From Methanospirillum hungatei JF-1 (lineage in GTDB: Archaea > Halobacteriota > Methanomicrobia > Methanomicrobiales > Methanospirillaceae), in NCBI RefSeq assembly GCF_000013445.1, contig NC_007796.1, positions 3,322,936 to 3,386,935 on the forward strand: 64,000 bases of DNA, written 5' to 3'. Positions 3,759 to 51,738 of this stretch are shown one piece after another (position 1 is the first letter of the stretch; the number at the start of each line of letters is the position of its first letter). The notes below the pieces were generated by a model. It searched no databases and was not told the origin of the DNA. It worked only from the letters and a program-made list of their open reading frames with translations. The position numbers were made by a program, and so were the translations under genes.

Positions 3759-5380
3759 CAGGATCTCCTCCGCTCTATTGTCGCCCCGGTCCTGGTCAGG
3801 ATCGTATGCCCGAACGGGGACGTCTGATTATCCCAGTCCTGTGTGACATCAGTCCTGACATGTGCTCCCCGTGACTCCTCCCGAAGAAGTGCCGCGGTCA
3901 CGATAAGCCGCGCAGTATCAATCATGTTCCGGGTCGTACAACAATCTATGAATCCCGATGGATCAACTGCTTTGAGCCTTTTTCTTGACAGTACATCGAG
4001 TGCGGCCCTTGTTTCCTCAAGTGCAGCCTTGTTTCTGAAAATTCCTGCTCCCTTCCACATGATCCGCTGCACTTCACCCTTCATCTGGTCAGGCAGGATA
4101 TCGCCGTTGAGATATCCCTCGAGCATCAGGACTGCAGAGGAAATCTGATCATCCGGGACCTCTCCTTCCCGACGGGCATTTCTCCCTGCTGACGCCCCTG
4201 CCCGCGCCCCAAAGACCTGTGTTTCTGCAAGGGCATTTCCACCCAGACGATTCGCACCATGCACCCCTCCGGCAACCTCACCACAGGCATACAAACCAGG
4301 AAGCGTGGTCTGACAGGAGGGATCAATACGAAGACCACCCATGATATGATGCGCAGTAGGAGCGACCTCCATTGGTTCGGTCCGGATGTCAACCCCGTAC
4401 TTCAGGAACTGTTCCAGCATAACCGGGAGTCGTTCCTCAATGGTCCGGGCGGGGAGATGGGTGACGTCAAGCCACACACCACCATGAGGAGTCCCTCTCC
4501 CCTGCATGATCTCGGTTGCACAAGCGCGTGCTACGACATCCCGTGTTGAGAGTTCCATCCGATCCGGATCATACCGGGACATGAACCGCTCACCAAGGGA
4601 ATTCTTGAGAACTCCCCCTTCTCCCCGTACTGCTTCAGTGACCAGCCTCCCCCGTGCATCCCAGGGATATACCGCACCGGTCGGATGGAACTGCACCTGC
4701 TCCATATCGATCAATTCTGCCCCGGCGCGCCACCCCATCGCATATCCGTCACCAGTCCCACTCGTGGAGTTTGTGGAGATATCATAGACCCGTGTCCCAC
4801 CGCCGGTTGCAAGGACCGTGGCATCAGCAAGGAACGTATAGAGCCTGCCTTTCCGGTCAAGACCCAGGGCGCCGATCACCCGTCCTTCAGAGATGAGCAG
4901 ATCAAAGGCGGCAACCTCATGACATACACGGACCGGTGTGTGTGCCAACCGTTCCATCAAAGTTATCATCATCTCATGTCCGGTCCGGTCTCCGGCATAA
5001 CAGGTCCGTGGAAAACACTGGCCTCCGAAAGGTCGCTGACAGATCGTGCATGAGTCGGTGACATCAAACACCGCGCCCCAGGAGATGAGATCCTGCATCC
5101 GGTCAGGGGCCTCTTTAGTCAGGACATGCACCAGATCCTGATCATTGAGATATGCCCCACCCTTCATGGTGTCAGCAAAGTGATCGGCGATAGAATCTGC
5201 CTCATTCATCACCGCATTATACCCGCCTTCAGCCATGATTGTGCATCCGCCTTTCCCGGCAATGGTCCGGGAAATGAGTACACAGGTTCCGTGCGCAGAG
5301 GCCTCGATGGCAGCACGGACTCCTGCACCTCCGCTCCCGATTACCAGAACATGGGATCGGATGATCTCCTGAATCTGCAT
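3758..5380 (-). CDS. tfrA: Thiol:fumarate reductase subunit A (FAD flavoprotein)
   Basis: 540 residues from the ATG at 5380. It opens with the dinucleotide-binding motif VLVIGSGGAGVRAA and carries the fumarate reductase/succinate dehydrogenase signatures FHPTG and HGANRLGGNALAE plus a C-terminal flavoprotein domain. It catalyses fumarate reduction with electrons from TfrB. A longer frame from a GTG at 5443 adds 21 unlikely residues, so the ATG next to the Rossmann strand was chosen. A tatata run sits immediately upstream of that ATG. It is the first gene of tfrA-tfrB-methyltransferase, with one-base overlaps, and is divergent from aspartate kinase. Confidence 0.93.
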   Translation of the reverse strand: MQIQEIIRSHVLVIGSGGAGVRAAIEASAHGTCVLISRTIAGKGGCTIMAEGGYNAVMNEADSIADHFADTMKGGAYLNDQDLVHVLTKEAPDRMQDLISWGAVFDVTDSCTICQRPFGGQCFPRTCYAGDRTGHEMMITLMERLAHTPVRVCHEVAAFDLLISEGRVIGALGLDRKGRLYTFLADATVLATGGGTRVYDISTNSTSGTGDGYAMGWRAGAELIDMEQVQFHPTGAVYPWDARGRLVTEAVRGEGGVLKNSLGERFMSRYDPDRMELSTRDVVARACATEIMQGRGTPHGGVWLDVTHLPARTIEERLPVMLEQFLKYGVDIRTEPMEVAPTAHHIMGGLRIDPSCQTTLPGLYACGEVAGGVHGANRLGGNALAETQVFGARAGASAGRNARREGEVPDDQISSAVLMLEGYLNGDILPDQMKGEVQRIMWKGAGIFRNKAALEETRAALDVLSRKRLKAVDPSGFIDCCTTRNMIDTARLIVTAALLREESRGAHVRTDVTQDWDNQTSPFGHTILTRTGATIERRRS

Positions 5381-5500
5381 TATATACACGTCACAGTCAG
5401 AACGACTTTGATGTTTTGGTAGGACAGTCTCTCCTCCAGCCACGCCTGTAGCATCCCTTTTGAGAAAAAAAGATCCATAGTAACGGAGAGTTGCACCTGC

Positions 5501-6898
5501 ATGAAGCTCATCATGAAGTTTGGGGGCACTTCTGTCCAGAACGCGGAGTCAGTCAGAAGGGCTGTAGATATTGTATATGATCGCTATTCCAGACATGATC
5601 GTCTGGCAATTGTAATCTCTGCACGGCGGGGGGTTACTGATCGGCTGATCACCTGCGCAGAAGCAATGGTCACTTCCCGGGATGCGGCTGAAGTAACAGA
5701 TCTCGTCGAATATCTGACTGAAGGGCACCTCTCAACCCTGAAAGAGGTAGCCCCGGACTTCTCCCCTGAAGTCAGCGGGATCATAACGAGGCGCATTGAG
5801 AACCTTCGTGATTTTCTCTATGCGGTCTACCATCTCAGGGAATTGACGGTCAGATCCCGTGATTATATCATCTCTTTTGGTGAGCGACTGAACGCACCGA
5901 TTATCAGTGCCGCACTCCGCCAGCGGGGGATCCCGTCCATGGTTCTTGACGGATGCGAGGCAGGTATCCTTACGACAGAAAACCATGGTGATGCCATAGC
6001 TCTCCCGGCAGGTGAGGCGCGTATCAAAAGCCGGCTGGAACCGGTCATAGACCATTCTGTTCCGGTGATCACCGGGTTCATGGGCTGTACAGAGAAAGGA
6101 GTCGTTACCACGCTGGGCAGATCCGGGTCAGACTATTCGGCAACCATCATCGGCGCTGCTCTTGATGCTGATGAGATATGGATCTGGACCGACGTTGACG
6201 GGATCATGACCACCGATCCCCGCCTGGTCCCTGAGGCACGGGTCATCCCCCGGATTTCCTACATCGAGGTCATGGAACTCTCGTACTTTGGTGCCAAGGT
6301 CATGCACTCCCGATCCATTGAGCCGGCCATGCAGAAGGGGATCCCGGTGTGGGTGAAGAACACTTTCAATCCCAGTTATCCAGGAACCGTCATTGAGGGC
6401 GGTGAGCAGAAAGACTCCAGGGTAGTGAAGGCCATCACCTACATAGACAAGGTCGCTGCCATTACCATCGCCGGAGCACAGATGGTTGGAAGACCAGGAG
6501 TTGCACGGCATATCTTCACGCTTCTTGCTGAACATCAGATCAATGTCATGATGATTTCACAGGGATCATCTGAAGCAAATATCACCCTGATAATCGAAGC
6601 AAACCAGGTCCGAACCGCGATGGAGGCTTTATTACCCCTCAAGGAGCGGTGTGTGTTCAGGGATATCACAGCAAACGAGGATGTTTGTGCAGTGGCAGTC
6701 GTGGGATCAGGCATGGCCGGGATGGCAGGTACGGCAGGAAGGACTTTCTCAGCCCTTGGGAAGGCAGGGATTAATGTGATGATGATCTCACAGGGGTCAT
6801 CTGAAGTGAACATTTCATTTGTCGTCCGCCAGCAGGACGGACCACGTGCAGTCAAGGTCCTTCATGACGAATTTAATCTCATGAATGAGGAGGCATGA
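5501..6898 (+). CDS. lysC: Aspartate kinase
   Basis: 465 residues. The N-terminal amino-acid kinase domain starts MKFGGTSV, the classic aspartokinase signature, with the GRSGSDYSA nucleotide-site motif near residue 207. Two ACT domains follow (about 315-390 and 395-460), each with an INVMMISQGSSE-type effector-binding motif. It phosphorylates aspartate in the first step of the Asp-family amino acids (Lys, Thr, Met). The paired ACT domains predict feedback control, probably by threonine or lysine. A second in-frame ATG lies 12 bases inside (5513). The stop overlaps the purM start (ATGA), so the two are probably translated together. Confidence 0.95.
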   Translation: MKLIMKFGGTSVQNAESVRRAVDIVYDRYSRHDRLAIVISARRGVTDRLITCAEAMVTSRDAAEVTDLVEYLTEGHLSTLKEVAPDFSPEVSGIITRRIENLRDFLYAVYHLRELTVRSRDYIISFGERLNAPIISAALRQRGIPSMVLDGCEAGILTTENHGDAIALPAGEARIKSRLEPVIDHSVPVITGFMGCTEKGVVTTLGRSGSDYSATIIGAALDADEIWIWTDVDGIMTTDPRLVPEARVIPRISYIEVMELSYFGAKVMHSRSIEPAMQKGIPVWVKNTFNPSYPGTVIEGGEQKDSRVVKAITYIDKVAAITIAGAQMVGRPGVARHIFTLLAEHQINVMMISQGSSEANITLIIEANQVRTAMEALLPLKERCVFRDITANEDVCAVAVVGSGMAGMAGTAGRTFSALGKAGINVMMISQGSSEVNISFVVRQQDGPRAVKVLHDEFNLMNEEA

Positions 6899-29026: not shown

Positions 29027-30307
29027 ATGTCTTTGCATATTTCAATTATCGGGGGGGGGTATGTAGGCCTTGTTACCGGTGCCTGTTTTGCTCAACTCGG
29101 TAATAAGGTAACCATTATTGAAATAGATCAGAGAAAGATCGATTCAATAAACAAGGGGATTCCCCCCATCTATGAAGAAGGACTGGAAGAGATACTAAAA
29201 AAGAATTCGGGAACCCGATTATTTGCTACCAATTCTTATGCTTCCGTTGCAGAAAGTGATGTTTCAATTATCTGCGTTGGAACGCCGCCGAATCCTGACG
29301 GTTCTTCTAACCTTGAATATATCAGATCTGCAGCAACATCCATTGGAGAGGCTCTGAAAGATAATACCAGGTACCATGTGATAACGGTAAAGAGCACGGT
29401 TCCTCCGGGAACTACTGAAAAGATTGTTCTTCCTGAAGTCCGGAGGAATTCCGGGAGAGATTCTGATACCCTTGGTTTTTGTATGAACCCTGAGTTTTTA
29501 CGTGAGGGAAGAGCGATTGAGGATTTTTTACACCCTGACCGGATAGTCATTGGCTCATCTGATGAACAGGCCGAAGAGGTTCTGAAGAACCTCTATTCAA
29601 CTCTGAATGCCCCCATTATCTCTACATCGCTCACTGCTGCCGAGATGATAAAATATACCGCAAACTCATTTTTAGCAACAAAAATTTCATTCTCCAATGA
29701 AATCGGGAATATTTGTAAAAAACTCGGAATAGATGTGTATGATGTGATGAAGGGGGCCGGGCTTGATCACCGTATCGGATCGCATTTCCTCAATGCAGGT
29801 GCAGGGTTTGGAGGCAGCTGTTTTCCCAAAGACGTATCAGCACTTATCAGTCTTGCAGAGAGTGTAGGGGAAAGACCTCAATTGCTGCATGCCGTTATTG
29901 AAATCAATGAGAAACAGCCACATAAAATGCTGGAACTTGTCCGTAAACGAATCGGGGATCTGAAAGGTAAACGAATTGCAGTCCTCGGACTTGCGTTCAA
30001 GGATAATACTGATGATATCCGTGATTCGAGATCAATCCCGGTTATTGAGGAACTTATCAAAGAAGGAGCGGATGTCATTGCATATGATCCTATGGCAATG
30101 ATCAATATGAAGCGGCTATTCCCATCAATTACCTATGCAAAGAGTATTAAAGATGTCCTAAAAGATGCGGACGGATGTTTGATAATGACTGAATGGCCGG
30201 AGTTTTCACATTTGTCTGAAGAGTTCTCTCTCATGAAGCAGCCTCCGGTAATCCTTGAAGGACGGCGGATTATAAAACGACCGGAGGTTGAGGGAATTTG
30301 CTGGTAA
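29027..30307 (+). CDS. ugd: UDP-glucose 6-dehydrogenase (UDP-sugar dehydrogenase family)
   Basis: 426 residues from ATG 29027. The N-terminal Rossmann motif IIGGGYVGLVTG, the central EMIKYTANSFLATKIS segment and the catalytic GFGGSCFPKDV (active-site Cys near residue 265) identify a UDP-glucose/GDP-mannose dehydrogenase; neighbouring galU favours UDP-glucose. It makes UDP-glucuronate by two NAD oxidations. The GGG of the Rossmann loop is encoded by a G9 run (29051-29059). A TTG at 29018 gives three extra residues and was not used. Confidence 0.93.
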   Translation: MSLHISIIGGGYVGLVTGACFAQLGNKVTIIEIDQRKIDSINKGIPPIYEEGLEEILKKNSGTRLFATNSYASVAESDVSIICVGTPPNPDGSSNLEYIRSAATSIGEALKDNTRYHVITVKSTVPPGTTEKIVLPEVRRNSGRDSDTLGFCMNPEFLREGRAIEDFLHPDRIVIGSSDEQAEEVLKNLYSTLNAPIISTSLTAAEMIKYTANSFLATKISFSNEIGNICKKLGIDVYDVMKGAGLDHRIGSHFLNAGAGFGGSCFPKDVSALISLAESVGERPQLLHAVIEINEKQPHKMLELVRKRIGDLKGKRIAVLGLAFKDNTDDIRDSRSIPVIEELIKEGADVIAYDPMAMINMKRLFPSITYAKSIKDVLKDADGCLIMTEWPEFSHLSEEFSLMKQPPVILEGRRIIKRPEVEGICW

Positions 30308-43904: not shown

Positions 43905-44885
43905 ATGTCTTTCTTCGACAATAAAACCATACTCATAACCGGCGGAACCGGATCTTTCGGCAACGCGTTCACCTCCCGCCTTCTCAATAACCATAATCCG
44001 CATAGTATCCGGATCTACTCGCGTGGAGAATATCTCCAATGGAAGATGCAGCAAAAGTTTTCCGACAGCCGCATCAGGTTTTTCATTGGTGATATCCGAG
44101 ATAAAGCCCGTCTCACTCGCGCCTTGAATGATGTCGATATCGTGGTTCACGCAGCAGCGCTTAAACAGGTTCCAGCATGTGAGTATAATCCGATTGAAGC
44201 CGTGAGAACCAACATCGACGGGACAACAAACCTTATAGATACATCAATTGACAACAATGTCGACCGGCTCATAGCCCTGAGCACTGACAAGGCTGTTCAC
44301 CCGGTCAATCTCTACGGCGCAACAAAGATGGTAGCGGAGAAACTGTTTATCCAGGGGAATGCATATTCAGGTAAGAAAACAACCCGGTTTTCCTGTGTCA
44401 GGTATGGAAATGTGGTTGGAAGCAGAGGAAGCATCGTTCCCTTATTTAAGATGCAAAAAGAAGAGGGAAAGATTACTATAACTGATCCCCGTATGACCAG
44501 GTTCTGGCTTACCCTGGACCAGGGTGCAGCCTTTGTTGAAAATTGTACCCAGATTATGAATGGAGGAGAGATATTTGTGCCCAAGATCCCCAGCATGAAG
44601 ATCACCGACCTTGCAGAGGCTATAGCTCCTGGTATTCCCCATGAGTATATCGGCATCAGACCTGGAGAAAAGATCCATGAAGTTCTTATTACCGAAGATG
44701 AAGCCCGCCATACCCGCGATCTTAAAGAATACTATATTATAGATCCGGAGATATCGTTCTGGAACGGGCATAGAAAGGATTATTCTTACACACTCCCTGA
44801 AGGGTTCCGGTATTCCAGCGAGACCAATACCGAATGGCTGGATGAAGAGGGATTAAAGCAGATGCTTGCTGAATCCCACCCATAA
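43905..44885 (+). CDS. pseB: UDP-N-acetylglucosamine 4,6-dehydratase (inverting)
   Basis: 326 residues. TGGTGSFGNAF near residue 13 binds NADP; HAAALKQVPACE near residue 82 and STDKAVHPVNLYGATK near residue 126 (with Asp, Lys and Tyr/Lys catalytic residues) are PseB/FlaA1 signatures. It makes UDP-4-keto-6-deoxy-L-AltNAc, the first step to CMP-pseudaminic acid. Genes for the remaining steps follow in order after an interposed HEPN/MNT pair. Confidence 0.95.
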   Translation: MSFFDNKTILITGGTGSFGNAFTSRLLNNHNPHSIRIYSRGEYLQWKMQQKFSDSRIRFFIGDIRDKARLTRALNDVDIVVHAAALKQVPACEYNPIEAVRTNIDGTTNLIDTSIDNNVDRLIALSTDKAVHPVNLYGATKMVAEKLFIQGNAYSGKKTTRFSCVRYGNVVGSRGSIVPLFKMQKEEGKITITDPRMTRFWLTLDQGAAFVENCTQIMNGGEIFVPKIPSMKITDLAEAIAPGIPHEYIGIRPGEKIHEVLITEDEARHTRDLKEYYIIDPEISFWNGHRKDYSYTLPEGFRYSSETNTEWLDEEGLKQMLAESHP

Positions 44886-45801: not shown

Positions 45802-46977
45802 ATGCAAAATATGACCTATCCCCTTCCATACGGCAGGCAATGGATCGATGACGACGATATTACCGCTGTTATCGCTGCTTTAAAAGGAGACTGGCTCACC
45901 CAGGGCCCCTTGGTTGAGAGCTTTGAACAGAAGATTGCGGAATATGTCGGATCAGAATATGCCGTTGCATTTAATTCCGGGACCTCTGCTCTCCATGGAG
46001 CATATTACGCAGCCGGGGTCCGAACCGGAGATGAAGTAATTACCAGTCCCATCACCTTTGTTGCAACCGCAAACGCCGGAGTATACCTGGGTGCCCGTCC
46101 GGTGTTTGTAGACATTGATAAGAAGACATGGTGTATTGACACCGATAAAATCAATGAAGCAATATCCAACCGGACGAAGGTTATTGCTCCGGTGGATTTT
46201 GCCGGATATCCGGTTGATATGACATCCATTCGGGAGATAGCACAAGACCATTCTTGCATAGTGGTGGAAGATGCAGCCCATGCTCTTGGGGCAATCCGGG
46301 GTGATGTGAAAGTTGGTACTGAAGCAGATATGACGATGTTCAGTTTCCATCCGGTCAAACATATCACTACCGGAGAAGGGGGTATTGTTACTACAAATAA
46401 CCGGGAATTCGCCGCGGCGATGAAACGATTCCGAAGCCACGGGATAACAAAAGATCCAGAATTACTTCACAAAAATGAGGGCCAATGGTACTACGAAATG
46501 CAAGACCTAGGATATAATTACCGGATAACTGACATTCAGTGTGCTCTCGGGCTCTCACAACTTGAAAAACTTGAGAGATTTGTTAAGCGCCGGAATGAGA
46601 TCGCCCGGATGTATGATGAAGCATTCCGGGGGAATGAAAAACTGGTGAACCCTCCAAAACCTCCCCAAAATTCCCGCCATGCCTATCATCTCTATCCGGT
46701 CTGTTTCACAGGAGTTGATAGGAAAAAGATCTTCATGGACCTTCGGGAAATAGGGATCTTCTGCCAGGTCCATTATATTCCGGTCCATCTCCAACCATAT
46801 TACCGTGAGAGATTTGGATATCACGATGGAGATTTTCCAGTTGCAGAGAATTTTTACCAAAGTGAAATATCCCTGCCGATGTTTCCGGCGATGAGTGATG
46901 AGGATGTAGAACGGGTTATTGTTGGAGTGCAGGAGATGTTTGAAAAAAGAGTATATGCTGACTTAAAACTTGTTTAA
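45802..46977 (+). CDS. pseC: UDP-4-amino-4,6-dideoxy-L-AltNAc transaminase
   Basis: 391 residues, DegT/DnrJ/EryC1 family. AFNSGTSALHGAYYAAG near residue 55 binds PLP phosphate; VEDAAHALGA near residue 153 and SFHPVKHITTGEGG near residue 179 with the PLP lysine complete the site. The N-terminal YGRQWIDDDDI is typical of PseC. It transfers an amino group from glutamate to the PseB product. An ATG four codons in (45811) is an alternative start. Confidence 0.94.
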   Translation: MQNMTYPLPYGRQWIDDDDITAVIAALKGDWLTQGPLVESFEQKIAEYVGSEYAVAFNSGTSALHGAYYAAGVRTGDEVITSPITFVATANAGVYLGARPVFVDIDKKTWCIDTDKINEAISNRTKVIAPVDFAGYPVDMTSIREIAQDHSCIVVEDAAHALGAIRGDVKVGTEADMTMFSFHPVKHITTGEGGIVTTNNREFAAAMKRFRSHGITKDPELLHKNEGQWYYEMQDLGYNYRITDIQCALGLSQLEKLERFVKRRNEIARMYDEAFRGNEKLVNPPKPPQNSRHAYHLYPVCFTGVDRKKIFMDLREIGIFCQVHYIPVHLQPYYRERFGYHDGDFPVAENFYQSEISLPMFPAMSDEDVERVIVGVQEMFEKRVYADLKLV

Positions 46978-47020
46978 CACTATCTCTAACTGGTAGCATC
47001 ACCAATAATTGAGAATAATT

Positions 47021-47701
47021 ATGCGACTTGCAATCATCCCTGCCCGGGGCGGAAGCAAAAGGATTCCGCGAAAGAATATCAGGGATTTCTGCGGAAAGCC
47101 AATCATTACCTGGTCAATTGAAGCGGCTCTCCAGAGTAAATGCTTTGACCGGGTTATTGTTTCGACGGATGATGAGGAGATTGCTGATGTTGCAAGAAGA
47201 TTTGGGGCAGAGGTTCCATTTCTCCGTCCGGCCAAACTGGCTGATGATTATACCGGGACGGCAGCGGTTGTCCGTCATACGATTGAGTGGTTTGAGGGAA
47301 ATGGGATCTTATACGAGGAGGTATGCTGTATCTATGCAACGGCTCCTTTTATCAGGGCAGAAGATATTCAATCCGGTCTTGAGAAACTTCATTCAAGTAA
47401 TGCAGACTATGCTTTCACGGTAACGAGTTTTCCGTTCCCGATACAGCGGGCTGTAAAAATAAATACTACCGGCACACTTGAGATGTTCTATCCGGAGTAT
47501 TATAATACACGGTCCCAGGATCTCGAAGAAGCATACCATGATGCCGGTCAGTTCTACTGGGGGAAAGCATCTGCTTGGAAAGAGGGAGTTATATTATTTT
47601 CAGAGAGATCAGTTCCGATTGTTCTGCCAAGATACCGGGTTCAGGATATTGATACTTTGGAAGACTGGATCCGAGCGGAGATGATGTTCAAGTGCATGTA
47701 A
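47021..47701 (+). CDS. pseF: CMP-pseudaminic acid cytidylyltransferase
   Basis: 226 residues from ATG 47021. IPARGGSKRIPRKNIR is the CMP-sialate synthetase signature; PIITWSIEAAL and STDDEEIADVA follow. YNTRSQDLEEAYHDAGQFYWG near residue 155 is typical of PseF/pseudaminate rather than of neuraminate enzymes. It activates pseudaminic acid with CTP, the last step. A TTG at 47009 gives four extra residues. Confidence 0.93.
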   Translation: MRLAIIPARGGSKRIPRKNIRDFCGKPIITWSIEAALQSKCFDRVIVSTDDEEIADVARRFGAEVPFLRPAKLADDYTGTAAVVRHTIEWFEGNGILYEEVCCIYATAPFIRAEDIQSGLEKLHSSNADYAFTVTSFPFPIQRAVKINTTGTLEMFYPEYYNTRSQDLEEAYHDAGQFYWGKASAWKEGVILFSERSVPIVLPRYRVQDIDTLEDWIRAEMMFKCM

Positions 47702-47787: not shown

Positions 47788-48414
47788 ATGAAATCATATA
47801 AGACAGATCAGGAAAAATTTTGGGCTGGGGAATTTGGGACGGAATACATATCAAGAAATGCAAATCGTGATTCTATTTCAAAAAATCTTGCTTTCTTCGC
47901 TGCTGCATTAAAACATACTCGTAATATTAATAGTTGTATTGAGTTTGGAGCAAATATTGGAATAAATCTAAAAGCATTAAAAATACTTCTTCCTAAACTA
48001 AATCAATATGCAATTGAGATAAATACGGATGCAATTACCGAACTAAATAAGTTTCTTCCCGAACAAAATATTTTCCCGCAATCAATTCTAGAATACTCAC
48101 CAACAAAGACATTTGATCTTGTTTTAATCAAAGGTGTTCTAATCCATATCAATCCTGAATATCTGGAAAAAGTATACAATTTGTTGTACGAATCATCTAA
48201 TCGGTATTTATTAATTTGTGAATATTATAATCCATCACCTATTGAGGTTACTTATAGAGGCCATCAGAAAAGATTGTTTAAACGAGATTTTTGTGGAGAA
48301 ATGCTAGATCTATATGAAGATCTCATTCTTACCGATTATGGTTTTGTGTACCATAGGGATTGGAATTTTCCACAGGATGACATTAATTGGTTTTTATTAG
48401 AGAAAAAACAATGA
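47788..48414 (+). CDS. Pseudaminic acid biosynthesis-associated methylase
   Basis: 208 residues. It begins YKTDQEKFWAGEFGTEYISRN, the opening of the family of methyltransferases found in pseudaminic acid loci, and has a SAM motif CIEFGANIGINLKAL near residue 52 and FDLVLIKGVLIHINP near residue 111. It may methylate a Pse intermediate, a glycosyl residue or the acceptor; the target is not established for this family. AT-rich compared with pseF. Confidence 0.82.
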   Translation: MKSYKTDQEKFWAGEFGTEYISRNANRDSISKNLAFFAAALKHTRNINSCIEFGANIGINLKALKILLPKLNQYAIEINTDAITELNKFLPEQNIFPQSILEYSPTKTFDLVLIKGVLIHINPEYLEKVYNLLYESSNRYLLICEYYNPSPIEVTYRGHQKRLFKRDFCGEMLDLYEDLILTDYGFVYHRDWNFPQDDINWFLLEKKQ

Positions 48415-48485: not shown

Positions 48486-50042
48486 ATGTTTAATTCTTTA
48501 ATAATAATCCGCACCGATGCATCTACCGCTATCGGCACGGGTCATGTCATGCGTTGCCTCACCCTTGCCGGAGTTTTGAGAGATAGAGGTGCATCGGTCT
48601 CATTTATCTGCCGTGAACATGATGGGCATCTTTGTGACCGCATCGAGGAGCAGGGGTTTATAGTCCATCGTTTAAGGAAAGGTGCCGATCCTGTATTTCC
48701 ATCTCCGGCGTTTGATCCATATCATGCCCCTTGGCTTGGAGTCTCATGGGAAGAGGATTCCGAAGAAACTCGCAGGATAATATCTACACTGGACAGAAAA
48801 CCGGACTGGTTAATTGTTGATCATTATGCATTGGATGAGAGATGGGAAAGGTATCTCCGCCCATATGTTTCCCGGATCTTTGTTATTGATGATCTTGCTG
48901 ACCGGGTGCATGACTGCGATCTTCTTTTGGATCAAAACCTGGTTGAAGGGATGGAGACGAGGTACGATGAAAAGATCCCATCCTCGTGTGGAAAGATGCT
49001 GGGACCAGAGTATGCTTTGCTTCAGCCGATTTATTCAGAACTACATGATAAGATCCCCCCTCGTGAAGGTCCAATCAGGCGAATTCTTATCTTTTTTGGC
49101 GGGGTAGACCAGAATAACCTGACCGGAATAGCCCTTTCCGCAGTAATGGAGTTGAACCATCCGGATATCAAGGTTGATGTGGTCATATCAAAAAAATCCC
49201 CTTTTTATAATACTATCCGGGATCAGATTGTTGGCAGACCGGGCATAGTAGTACACAGTAACCTTCCATCTCTTGCACCCCTGATTGCGAAAGCGGATCT
49301 AGCGATCGGGGCTTCCGGGACAACGTGTTGGGAACGATTGTGCCTGGGGCTTCCTACCATTGTGATAACTACAGCAGAGAATCAGAAAGCCATTGCTCAT
49401 GGTCTTAAAGAGCAAGGTCTAGTTAAATGGCTAGGAAATGCTGATACCGTAACAGCAAATATGATTCGCGAATCTATTTCTAAACTGTTGTCAAGAAGGG
49501 ATATTAGGGATTGGTCCTCACAGTGCTCACAAAGGGTTGATGGCCTTGGGGTAATGAGGGTTTTTACTGCACTTACGATATCTCCGGATACAGCATTACA
49601 TGTTCGACGTGCTAAGCTTTCTGACGAAAAAATATTGTTATCATGGGCGAATGACCCATTAAACCGGAAGAATTCTTTCACATTGGATGAGATCTCTCCA
49701 GACAGACACCATCAATGGTTTTATGATAAACTCCGAGATGTAGAGAATGTTTTTCTCTATATTGTTGAGAGTGAGGATAAGGTTCCCATCGGACAGGTGA
49801 GATTTGAAAGAAAAAGTGAAATATGGGAAATTCATTACTCTCTTGCCACCGAGTTCAGGAACCGTGGAGTAGGAAGGCCCCTTCTGAAGGCTGGTCTTTG
49901 CGCATTCAGAAAAGAACATGAAGGGGTAATAATATTTGGAAGAGTAAAAGAAGAGAATACTACCTCATGTAAAGTTTTTGAATCACTTAATTTCTCAGCC
50001 AAATCTGACGGGGGGGGGGTGGCGTATCAGCGTCTGCTCTGA
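48486..50042 (+). CDS. pseG-pseH: Fused PseG hydrolase and PseH-type N-acetyltransferase
   Basis: 518 residues from ATG 48486. Residues 1-345 form PseG, a UDP-sugar hydrolase with a GT-B-like fold: RTDASTAIGTGHVMRCLTLA near residue 9, IVDHYALDERWE near residue 108, FFGGVDQNN near residue 205 and GASGTTCWERLCLGLP near residue 275. Residues about 365-518 are a GNAT acetyltransferase (KLSDEKILLSWANDP, FRNRGVGRPLLKAGL, FGRVKEENTTSCKVFESLNF). The two steps, 4-amino acetylation and release of 6-deoxy-AltdiNAc from UDP, are adjacent in the pathway. The 3' end contains a G10 run. Confidence 0.92.
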   Translation: MFNSLIIIRTDASTAIGTGHVMRCLTLAGVLRDRGASVSFICREHDGHLCDRIEEQGFIVHRLRKGADPVFPSPAFDPYHAPWLGVSWEEDSEETRRIISTLDRKPDWLIVDHYALDERWERYLRPYVSRIFVIDDLADRVHDCDLLLDQNLVEGMETRYDEKIPSSCGKMLGPEYALLQPIYSELHDKIPPREGPIRRILIFFGGVDQNNLTGIALSAVMELNHPDIKVDVVISKKSPFYNTIRDQIVGRPGIVVHSNLPSLAPLIAKADLAIGASGTTCWERLCLGLPTIVITTAENQKAIAHGLKEQGLVKWLGNADTVTANMIRESISKLLSRRDIRDWSSQCSQRVDGLGVMRVFTALTISPDTALHVRRAKLSDEKILLSWANDPLNRKNSFTLDEISPDRHHQWFYDKLRDVENVFLYIVESEDKVPIGQVRFERKSEIWEIHYSLATEFRNRGVGRPLLKAGLCAFRKEHEGVIIFGRVKEENTTSCKVFESLNFSAKSDGGGVAYQRLL

Positions 50043-50682
50043 TGTTGGAAGCTGGATGAACGAATATATCCCGGTTTTAATCTTTGATTGGATAGATGAT
50101 GGTCATGAAGTGAGATGGGCACATGATGCAGCAGAACTTCCCGCGGGAGATATGTGTTTTTTCTTGAGTTATGAGAAGATAGTAGATAAAAATCGGTTGA
50201 TGCAGCATCGAAACAATCTTGTTGTTCACGCTAGTGATTTACCGAAAGGAAGGGGTTGGTCACCTCTTACCTGGCAAATTCTTGAAGGAAAAGATAAAAT
50301 TCCAGTAACGATATTTGAAGCCGGAGAATCAGTTGATAGTGGACCCATATACGAGAAAGCTTTTGTATCATTTTCAGGTAATGAATTGATTGAAGAACTG
50401 CGTTGTGGATTAGCGAATGAAATTGTTGATTTATGTAGGGATTTTGTCAGTGGATATCCAGATAGTGCAAAACTTGGACTGAAGCAAGAAGGTGAGCCAT
50501 CTTTTTATCCACACCGTGGCCCTGAAGATAGTAAGATTGACGTTCAGAAAAGCCTTTTATCACAATTCCATCTGTTAAGAACGGTAGATAATAATAAGTA
50601 CCCTGCTTGGTTTGAGTATAAAGGACGTAAATTTTTTCTTAAAATTACCGCTAAAAGCAATTTAGATAATGCAAAAGAATGA
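49978..50682 (+). CDS. Formyltransferase-like protein (Formyl_trans_N type), start uncertain
   Basis: Open frame of up to 234 residues. HASDLPKGRGWSPLTWQI near residue 82 and VDSGPIYEK near residue 122 are the formyl-tetrahydrofolate-dependent N-formyltransferase active-site blocks (Asn/His and Asp). The first strand (RISVCSDVG) begins at about 50022, but no in-frame ATG or GTG precedes it; the only in-frame initiators are the TTG at 49978, lying inside pseG-pseH, and the ATG at 50056, which would cut the fold. A -1 shift at the G10 run would instead fuse it to pseG-pseH. It probably N-formylates an amino sugar of the Pse pathway. Confidence 0.75.
   Translation: MNHLISQPNLTGGGWRISVCSDVGSWMNEYIPVLIFDWIDDGHEVRWAHDAAELPAGDMCFFLSYEKIVDKNRLMQHRNNLVVHASDLPKGRGWSPLTWQILEGKDKIPVTIFEAGESVDSGPIYEKAFVSFSGNELIEELRCGLANEIVDLCRDFVSGYPDSAKLGLKQEGEPSFYPHRGPEDSKIDVQKSLLSQFHLLRTVDNNKYPAWFEYKGRKFFLKITAKSNLDNAKE
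50010..50019 (+). repeat. G10 homopolymer at the pseG-pseH/formyltransferase junction
   Basis: Ten consecutive G residues lie where the upstream frame (ending YQRLL) and downstream frame (beginning RISVCSD) overlap. A G9 version would make one continuous frame. Homopolymer runs of this length are slippery for polymerases and ribosomes. Confidence 0.9.
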
Positions 50683-50694
50683 CTGGTGAAAATT

Positions 50695-51738
50695 ATGCAA
50701 ATCGGTAGATCCATCATCGGAAACAATCACCCTCCATTTATCATTGCCGAGATGTCCGGGAACCACAACCACTCCCTCGATCGGGCACTTGCCATTGTTG
50801 AAGCAGCTGCACAAGCCGGTGCCCACGCAATAAAACTCCAAACATACACCGCTGACACGATGACACTGGATATCGCAGAGGGAGAATTCTTTATCAGCGA
50901 TAGGAATAGCCTCTGGAACGGACAAAGTCTGTATGATCTCTACAAGCAGGCACATACCCCTTGGGAGTGGCATGCCCCTATCATGAAACAGGCAGAAGAA
51001 CTCGGCCTTATCTGTTTCTCCACCCCATTTGATGAGACCGCTGTTGAGTTTCTTGAAACCCTGAATGTCCCTGCCTACAAGATCGCATCATTTGAAGTCG
51101 TTGATCTTCCATTGATACAAAAGGTAGCAGAAACCGGAAAACCTCTTATTATCTCAACAGGGATGGCAACCGTCGCTGAGATTGATGAAGCGGTCCGGAC
51201 TGCAAGGGATGCCGGGTGTCGGGATCTGGTCCTCCTTAAATGCACTAGCACCTATCCGGCAAGTCCGAAGAATAGTAATATCCTTACAATTCCTCATATC
51301 CGGGAGTTGTTTGATTGTGAGGTCGGTCTGTCTGATCATACTATGGGTATCGGCGCAGCGGTTGCAGCTGTCGCTCATGGTGCAACGGTGATTGAGAAAC
51401 ATTTTACTCTCTCACGGGCAGATGGCGGGGTGGATAGTGCATTCTCCATGGAACCACATGAATTCCGGATTCTAATTGAAGAGACGAGACGGGCCTGGCA
51501 GTCACTTGGGTGTGTACAATATGGGCCTGGTGAAGAGGGAAAAAAATCTGTGATTTTTCGACGATCTCTTTATGTTGCAGAAGATATGCAGGCAGGAGAT
51601 ATTTTCACAAAAGAAAACCTGCGGAGTATCAGACCGGGACTAGGATTGTCACCAAAATATTATAGGACATTACTTGGAAAACAGGTGAACAGGGATTTAA
51701 AAAAGGGAACTCCGGTAAGTTGGGACATACTTGTTTAG
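50695..51738 (+). CDS. pseI: Pseudaminic acid synthase
   Basis: 347 residues from ATG 50695. FIIAEMSGNHNHSLDRAL near residue 15 and AHAIKLQTYTADTMT near residue 43 are NeuB/PseI TIM-barrel motifs; IISTGMATVAEID near residue 148 and GLSDHTMGIGA near residue 207 follow. A C-terminal SAF (antifreeze-like) domain starts near residue 285. It condenses 6-deoxy-AltdiNAc with phosphoenolpyruvate to make pseudaminic acid. A GTG at 50686 gives three more residues. Last gene of the Pse run. Confidence 0.95.
   Translation: MQIGRSIIGNNHPPFIIAEMSGNHNHSLDRALAIVEAAAQAGAHAIKLQTYTADTMTLDIAEGEFFISDRNSLWNGQSLYDLYKQAHTPWEWHAPIMKQAEELGLICFSTPFDETAVEFLETLNVPAYKIASFEVVDLPLIQKVAETGKPLIISTGMATVAEIDEAVRTARDAGCRDLVLLKCTSTYPASPKNSNILTIPHIRELFDCEVGLSDHTMGIGAAVAAVAHGATVIEKHFTLSRADGGVDSAFSMEPHEFRILIEETRRAWQSLGCVQYGPGEEGKKSVIFRRSLYVAEDMQAGDIFTKENLRSIRPGLGLSPKYYRTLLGKQVNRDLKKGTPVSWDILV

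Follow-up and report, generated by a model that had tools for sequence, protein, structure and literature searches.

The pseudaminic acid gene cluster of the archaeon Methanospirillum hungatei JF-1 raises the question of whether a short run of guanines can decide which of two sugar-modifying enzymes is made. The run lies where the frame of a PseG-PseH protein meets that of a sugar N-formyltransferase, here called F, within the 64,000 nucleotides that were analysed as a whole (the window). A preliminary description had noted ten Gs at this junction and had proposed that their number, or ribosome slippage on them, determines whether a trifunctional enzyme is produced. The run was confirmed in the sequence, and its position relative to the surrounding features is given in Table 1.

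Table 1. Pseudaminic acid genes and features of the PseG-PseH/F junction, with positions in the window.
Feature	Position	Strand	Remark
PseB dehydratase	43905..44885	+	TIGR03589, 544 bits
PseC transaminase	45802..46977	+	TIGR03588, 550 bits
PseF cytidylyltransferase	47009..47701	+	TIGR03584, 355 bits
Pseudaminic acid biosynthesis-associated methylase	47788..48414	+	TIGR03587, 353 bits
PseG-PseH two-domain protein, split setting	48486..50042	+	ends ...SDGGGVAYQRLL, then stop
PseH-like GNAT acetyltransferase domain	49560..50042	+	Pfam and NCBIfam matches
G10 tract	50010..50019	+	sets the junction frame by its length
F, sugar N-formyltransferase reading frame	50020..50682	+	PF00551
Dual-coding overlap	50023..50042	+	PseH last strand and stop (xYQRLL, stop) versus F first strand (RISVCSD)
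PseI pseudaminic acid synthase	50686..51738	+	TIGR03586, 507 bits

The cluster is complete, with PseB, PseC, PseF, an associated methylase, PseG-PseH, F and PseI. The PseG half of the two-domain protein scores 296 bits against the PseG family TIGR03590. The other half is a GNAT domain (PF13302, 43.9 bits) that reaches 24.1 bits against the PseH family TIGR03585, below the curated cut-off of 93.1, and the PDB gave a weak match to MJ1062 (3eo4). Given the GNAT domain, its fusion to PseG and the context of the cluster, it may be called PseH-like. An AlphaFold2 model of the PseH domain, calculated from three sequences, had a pLDDT of 45 and was discarded. In the PseH of Helicobacter pylori, the last strand (β7) sits between β5 and β6 and is thus internal in the sheet (PMC4363471). 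A final stretch resembling the PseH last strand is also kept by distant PseG-GNAT relatives of the same family.

PseJ formylates the substrate of PseH. F has a Formyl_trans_N fold with a conserved core, as judged from Pfam, PDB profile and fold matches, and shares the formyltransferase fold of PseJ (PDB 6CI2, 6CI4); the profile of F aligns to 6CI2 from PseJ residue 2. The two proteins are nevertheless distant in sequence, and PseJ is free-standing. An AlphaFold2 model of F (pLDDT = 87.7) placed the first strand, residues 2–6, in the confident core and matched sugar N-formyltransferases such as WbkC, ArnA and VioF. The loci of Fodinibius, Hyphomicrobium and Sulfurimonas (L013, L014, L015) carry PseG, F and PseI in that order, and PseH went undetected within the fetched loci, which is consistent with F acting there on the substrate of PseH, as its substitute. 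From these bacterial clusters, F probably formylates UDP-4-amino-4,6-dideoxy-L-AltNAc.

The PseG-PseH frame runs from ATG 48486 to TGA 50040–50042 and ends natively in VAYQRLL. F lies in the +1 frame relative to it, reads TGG at 50020, CGT, ATC and onwards, and stops at 50682; across the junction its frame is ...GGG TGG CGT ATC AGC GTC TGC TCT GAT.... The candidate starts in the frame of F are TTG 49978, CTG 50005 and ATG 50056, the last of which falls 3' of the first strand. It had been stated that F has no normal start before this strand and that removal of one G unites the two frames. Both statements held: there is no ATG, GTG or TTG between TTG 49978 and ATG 50056, and PseG-PseH and F become one frame with one G less or, equally, with two Gs more. 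The run therefore lies inside a coding frame and, by frame arithmetic, a change in its length alters the product. Bacterial relatives of F mostly carry Met-Lys-Ile or a similar N-terminus at the first strand, so TGG 50020 occupies the position where a start codon is expected.

On its own, the run is only mildly unusual. A G10 is expected 0.26 times per window and was found in 16 of 100 dinucleotide shuffles, and about 0.9 runs of at least ten Gs are expected in the JF-1 genome (a single contig of 3,544,738 bases) with independent bases, where three runs of ten Gs and one of nine were counted. What is above chance is the position: seven genomes from three families carry a run of 8–12 Gs at this very junction. 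A G9 at 29051–29059 was weighed as a possible second switch and dismissed, as it encodes the glycine motif (GGGYVG) of a UDP-glucose dehydrogenase and is ordinary. Of the two further G10 runs of JF-1, the one at 189550 of the genome (L002) falls within the 5' end of an iron alcohol dehydrogenase gene and resembles a Shine-Dalgarno sequence, and the one at 2630826 (L004) precedes a flippase gene; both were considered as switches and that role was not established.

The junction was compared across 232 genomes of the Methanomicrobiales and 393 of the phylum, one genome per species and some of them metagenome-assembled (MAGs). Closely related PseG-PseH proteins occur in ten genomes, and a pure G-run at the junction in seven of the 232, from three families. 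An exact motif search found the junction in those seven only, and the wider phylum search returned no further F of this type. Viral contigs were also searched as a possible source, with no match to the junction. Within the seven genomes, eight-G windows number only 14 to about 106 genome-wide. The tract measures 8–12 Gs and both settings occur. PseH ends natively (split) in JF-1 (G10), M. stamsii (G10), the MAG M59 (G8) and G119 (G8), while an open PseG-PseH-F frame (fused) is present in G163 (G8, 743 codons), G123 (G12, 733) and G178 (G9, 749). G119 and G123 belong to the same genus and have opposite settings, and at least two changes of setting are needed on the tree. JF-1 and both of its genus mates are split, and no fused form was found among these Methanospirillum genomes. 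In M59, an upstream deletion of one nucleotide is accompanied by two Gs fewer, and PseH stays in frame. Thus, a homopolymer is indeed present in relatives, and the proposal that its length decides the product survives in so far as the run is kept, varies in length and is found with four split and three fused junctions; the trifunctional product is not supported.

Two side observations concern these relatives. The G8 of G163 (L054) is immediately preceded by three copies of a 13-nt unit (ATACCCGATGGAC), a second element in which a change of copy number would shift the frame. M. stamsii (L052, G084:C54; contigs C57, C78) carries degenerate, pseudogene-like PseG fragments with stops near its intact cluster.

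Conservation extends to both readings of the roughly 20 nucleotides that follow the tract, TATCAGCGTSTGCTCTGAT: one frame gives YQRLL or YQRVL and a stop, the other ISVCSD. Among the seven genomes, codons of invariant residues are identical at 5/5 positions in the overlap compared with 9/46 downstream (P about 9e-4). Two of the genomes that lack F show drift in the overlap that is tolerable for PseH but alters the F reading (S to N in G158; ISAFSD in G189). The dN/dS of F is 0.15–0.22 among three genomes, all split, and that of PseH is 0.16 between two genomes, both fused. Each domain is therefore under purifying selection regardless of the present setting, which argues that each enzyme matters even where the frame seems to exclude its production.

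Loss of F provides a further view of the tract. G158 has almost wholly lost F, carries an interrupted tract (GGGGAGGGG) and keeps a native PseH. G189 has neither F nor tract and its PseH is intact, as is that of G037, in which F is broken and the tract is missing. The fourth case is the split genome G119, where F is cut at two contig ends (L117, L118); the interrupting sequence has termini that resemble inverted repeats, which suggests an insertion element. Hence each of the four genomes in which F is damaged or missing has PseH in its native frame, and the tract is present in 6/6 genomes with an intact F. The association of tract and F has a P of 0.03, or 0.008 with G119 counted as F-bearing, both uncorrected for ancestry. 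Downstream of the broken F of G037 (L051, about 5070–5780 and beyond) there is a second, different formyltransferase in a 236-codon frame, together with a PIG-L deacetylase-like gene; the pair may perhaps be a replacement route to an N-formyl group.

The reading favoured here, with a probability of roughly 55%, is that the G-tract is a slipped-strand contingency tract at an either/or junction of PseH and F. In the split setting, as with the G10 of JF-1, PseG-PseH would be translated through its native last strand to its own stop codon, acetylation would take place on the 4-amino group of the UDP-altrosamine intermediate, and F would be silent or very scarce. With one G lost or two gained, PseH would enter the frame of F and drop its last strand, and the clipped domain, judged from the position of that strand, should lose activity. 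F would at the same time acquire an uninterrupted start, and formylation of that amino group would replace its acetylation. Because the same bases cannot supply one polypeptide with both PseH's final strand and F's opening strand, formyltransferase without acetyltransferase activity is expected in the fused setting and the reverse in the split one. Growth and shrinkage of the tract would then exchange the N-acetyl form of surface pseudaminic acid for the N-formyl form, and such switching would take place within populations. The broader claim is more tentative, at slightly under even odds: an archaeal contingency locus, spread over three families of the Methanomicrobiales with both settings in nature, in which a single-base slip picks between enzymes that overlap at their essential end strands and so exchanges the two forms of the sugar.

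A change of the tract in DNA is the simplest reading when compared with slippage in transcription or translation. If RNA polymerase or the ribosome slipped on the run, PseG-PseH and the fusion would be made in a set ratio from unchanged DNA. The conserved tract and overlap, and purifying selection on both domains in either setting, are also expected from such a programme, and F of M59 is reachable solely by slippage or by an altered tract; moreover, PMC3068675 cites translational frameshifting on the G/C tracts of Campylobacter maf genes. A programmed ribosomal frameshift, however, has a constant direction and a zero frame that always yields the short product, whereas here the zero-frame product is split in four genomes and fused in three, a variation that a set programme does not need. 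The ribosome slippage proposed in the preliminary description would have to be of +1 or −2 in the split genomes, as the usual −1 shift would not fuse them. An Rfam search found no conserved RNA, and hence no stimulatory RNA family, at the junction. Programmed slippage is therefore considered unlikely.

Overlaps of 23 nt are common in operons, and the contingency tract must also be weighed against ordinary overlapping genes. F would then start from TTG 49978 or CTG 50005, or be translationally coupled, and the run would be a chance glycine-rich stretch that drifts. A TTG and a CTG are in frame in both JF-1 and M. stamsii, a G10 by itself is within the reach of chance, and a start codon stands at the first strand of F in G178 (ATG) and G163 (TTG), where F might consequently be produced in either setting. 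Other observations speak against it. The F frame of M59 has a TGA immediately before the tract and no start codon, G123 is fused and its F has no separate start codon at the first strand, three relatives have fused frames, and loss of the tract accompanies loss of F. Ordinary overlap is thus quite unlikely.

The open fusions of 733–749 residues in three relatives could also be read as a useful trifunctional form, with the split genomes decaying or broken. This is very unlikely, since F in split genomes is not decaying, as its dN/dS indicates, and the fusion lacks the last strand of PseH although the bases for it are kept. The trifunctional enzyme first proposed is for the same reason probably wrong: in the fused frame the bases for VAYQRLL encode F's first strand instead and β7 is internal, so fusion more likely swaps an acetyltransferase for a formyltransferase. 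Sequencing or assembly error that hides a single true setting common to all species is scarcely credible, for while homopolymers are error-prone and several of the genomes are either MAGs or were obtained by an unknown method, none of the seven junctions is in the third frame, the upstream deletion of M59 is compensated, the junction of G163 differs in sequence yet is open for 743 codons, and the JF-1 genome is one finished contig.

To our knowledge, homopolymer phase variation has been studied almost solely in bacteria, chiefly pathogens. An archaeal S-layer protein is known to carry an N-formylated nonulosonic acid (PMC6137143), and the S-layer protein of M. hungatei stains as a glycoprotein (PMC11641113). 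A 2025 review defers archaeal phase-variation loci to future work (PMC11868660), and the accessible part of the literature held no precedent for chromosomal homopolymer phase variation in archaea, with a citation for a haloarchaeal virus only. If the contingency tract is real, archaea, here free-living methanogens, would apply homopolymer switching to the sugars of their surface, perhaps as a defence against viruses or in contacts between cells. Because a surface sugar should differ by 14 Da (acetyl versus formyl) between the two settings, the junction would then also offer a clean test system.

Besides PseJ, three known systems may be compared with this locus. The PseH-like domain resembles H. 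pylori PseH (PMC4363471) as a GNAT domain that adjoins PseG in a complete Pse cluster, and differs in being fused to PseG, in scoring below the family cut-off and in having a last strand that is coded twice. The frame-transition genes, which have been assigned to phase variation, programmed frameshifting or translational coupling (PMC3711429), likewise combine a conserved transition, a repeat at the site and a gene of surface chemistry; pseudaminic acid genes are not mentioned in the main text of that work, and at the present junction both fused and unfused zero-frame forms are found among relatives. A further parallel is with the flagellin glycosylation genes of Campylobacter (Cj1295, maf; PMC3068675), in which a G-tract in the pseudaminic acid pathway likewise gives a frame-dependent product and acts on a surface sugar. 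Switching within a strain has been demonstrated there, whereas the variation at the present junction is between species. The Campylobacter tract turns a single gene on or off, while in the archaeon JF-1 two competing enzymes meet at one junction.
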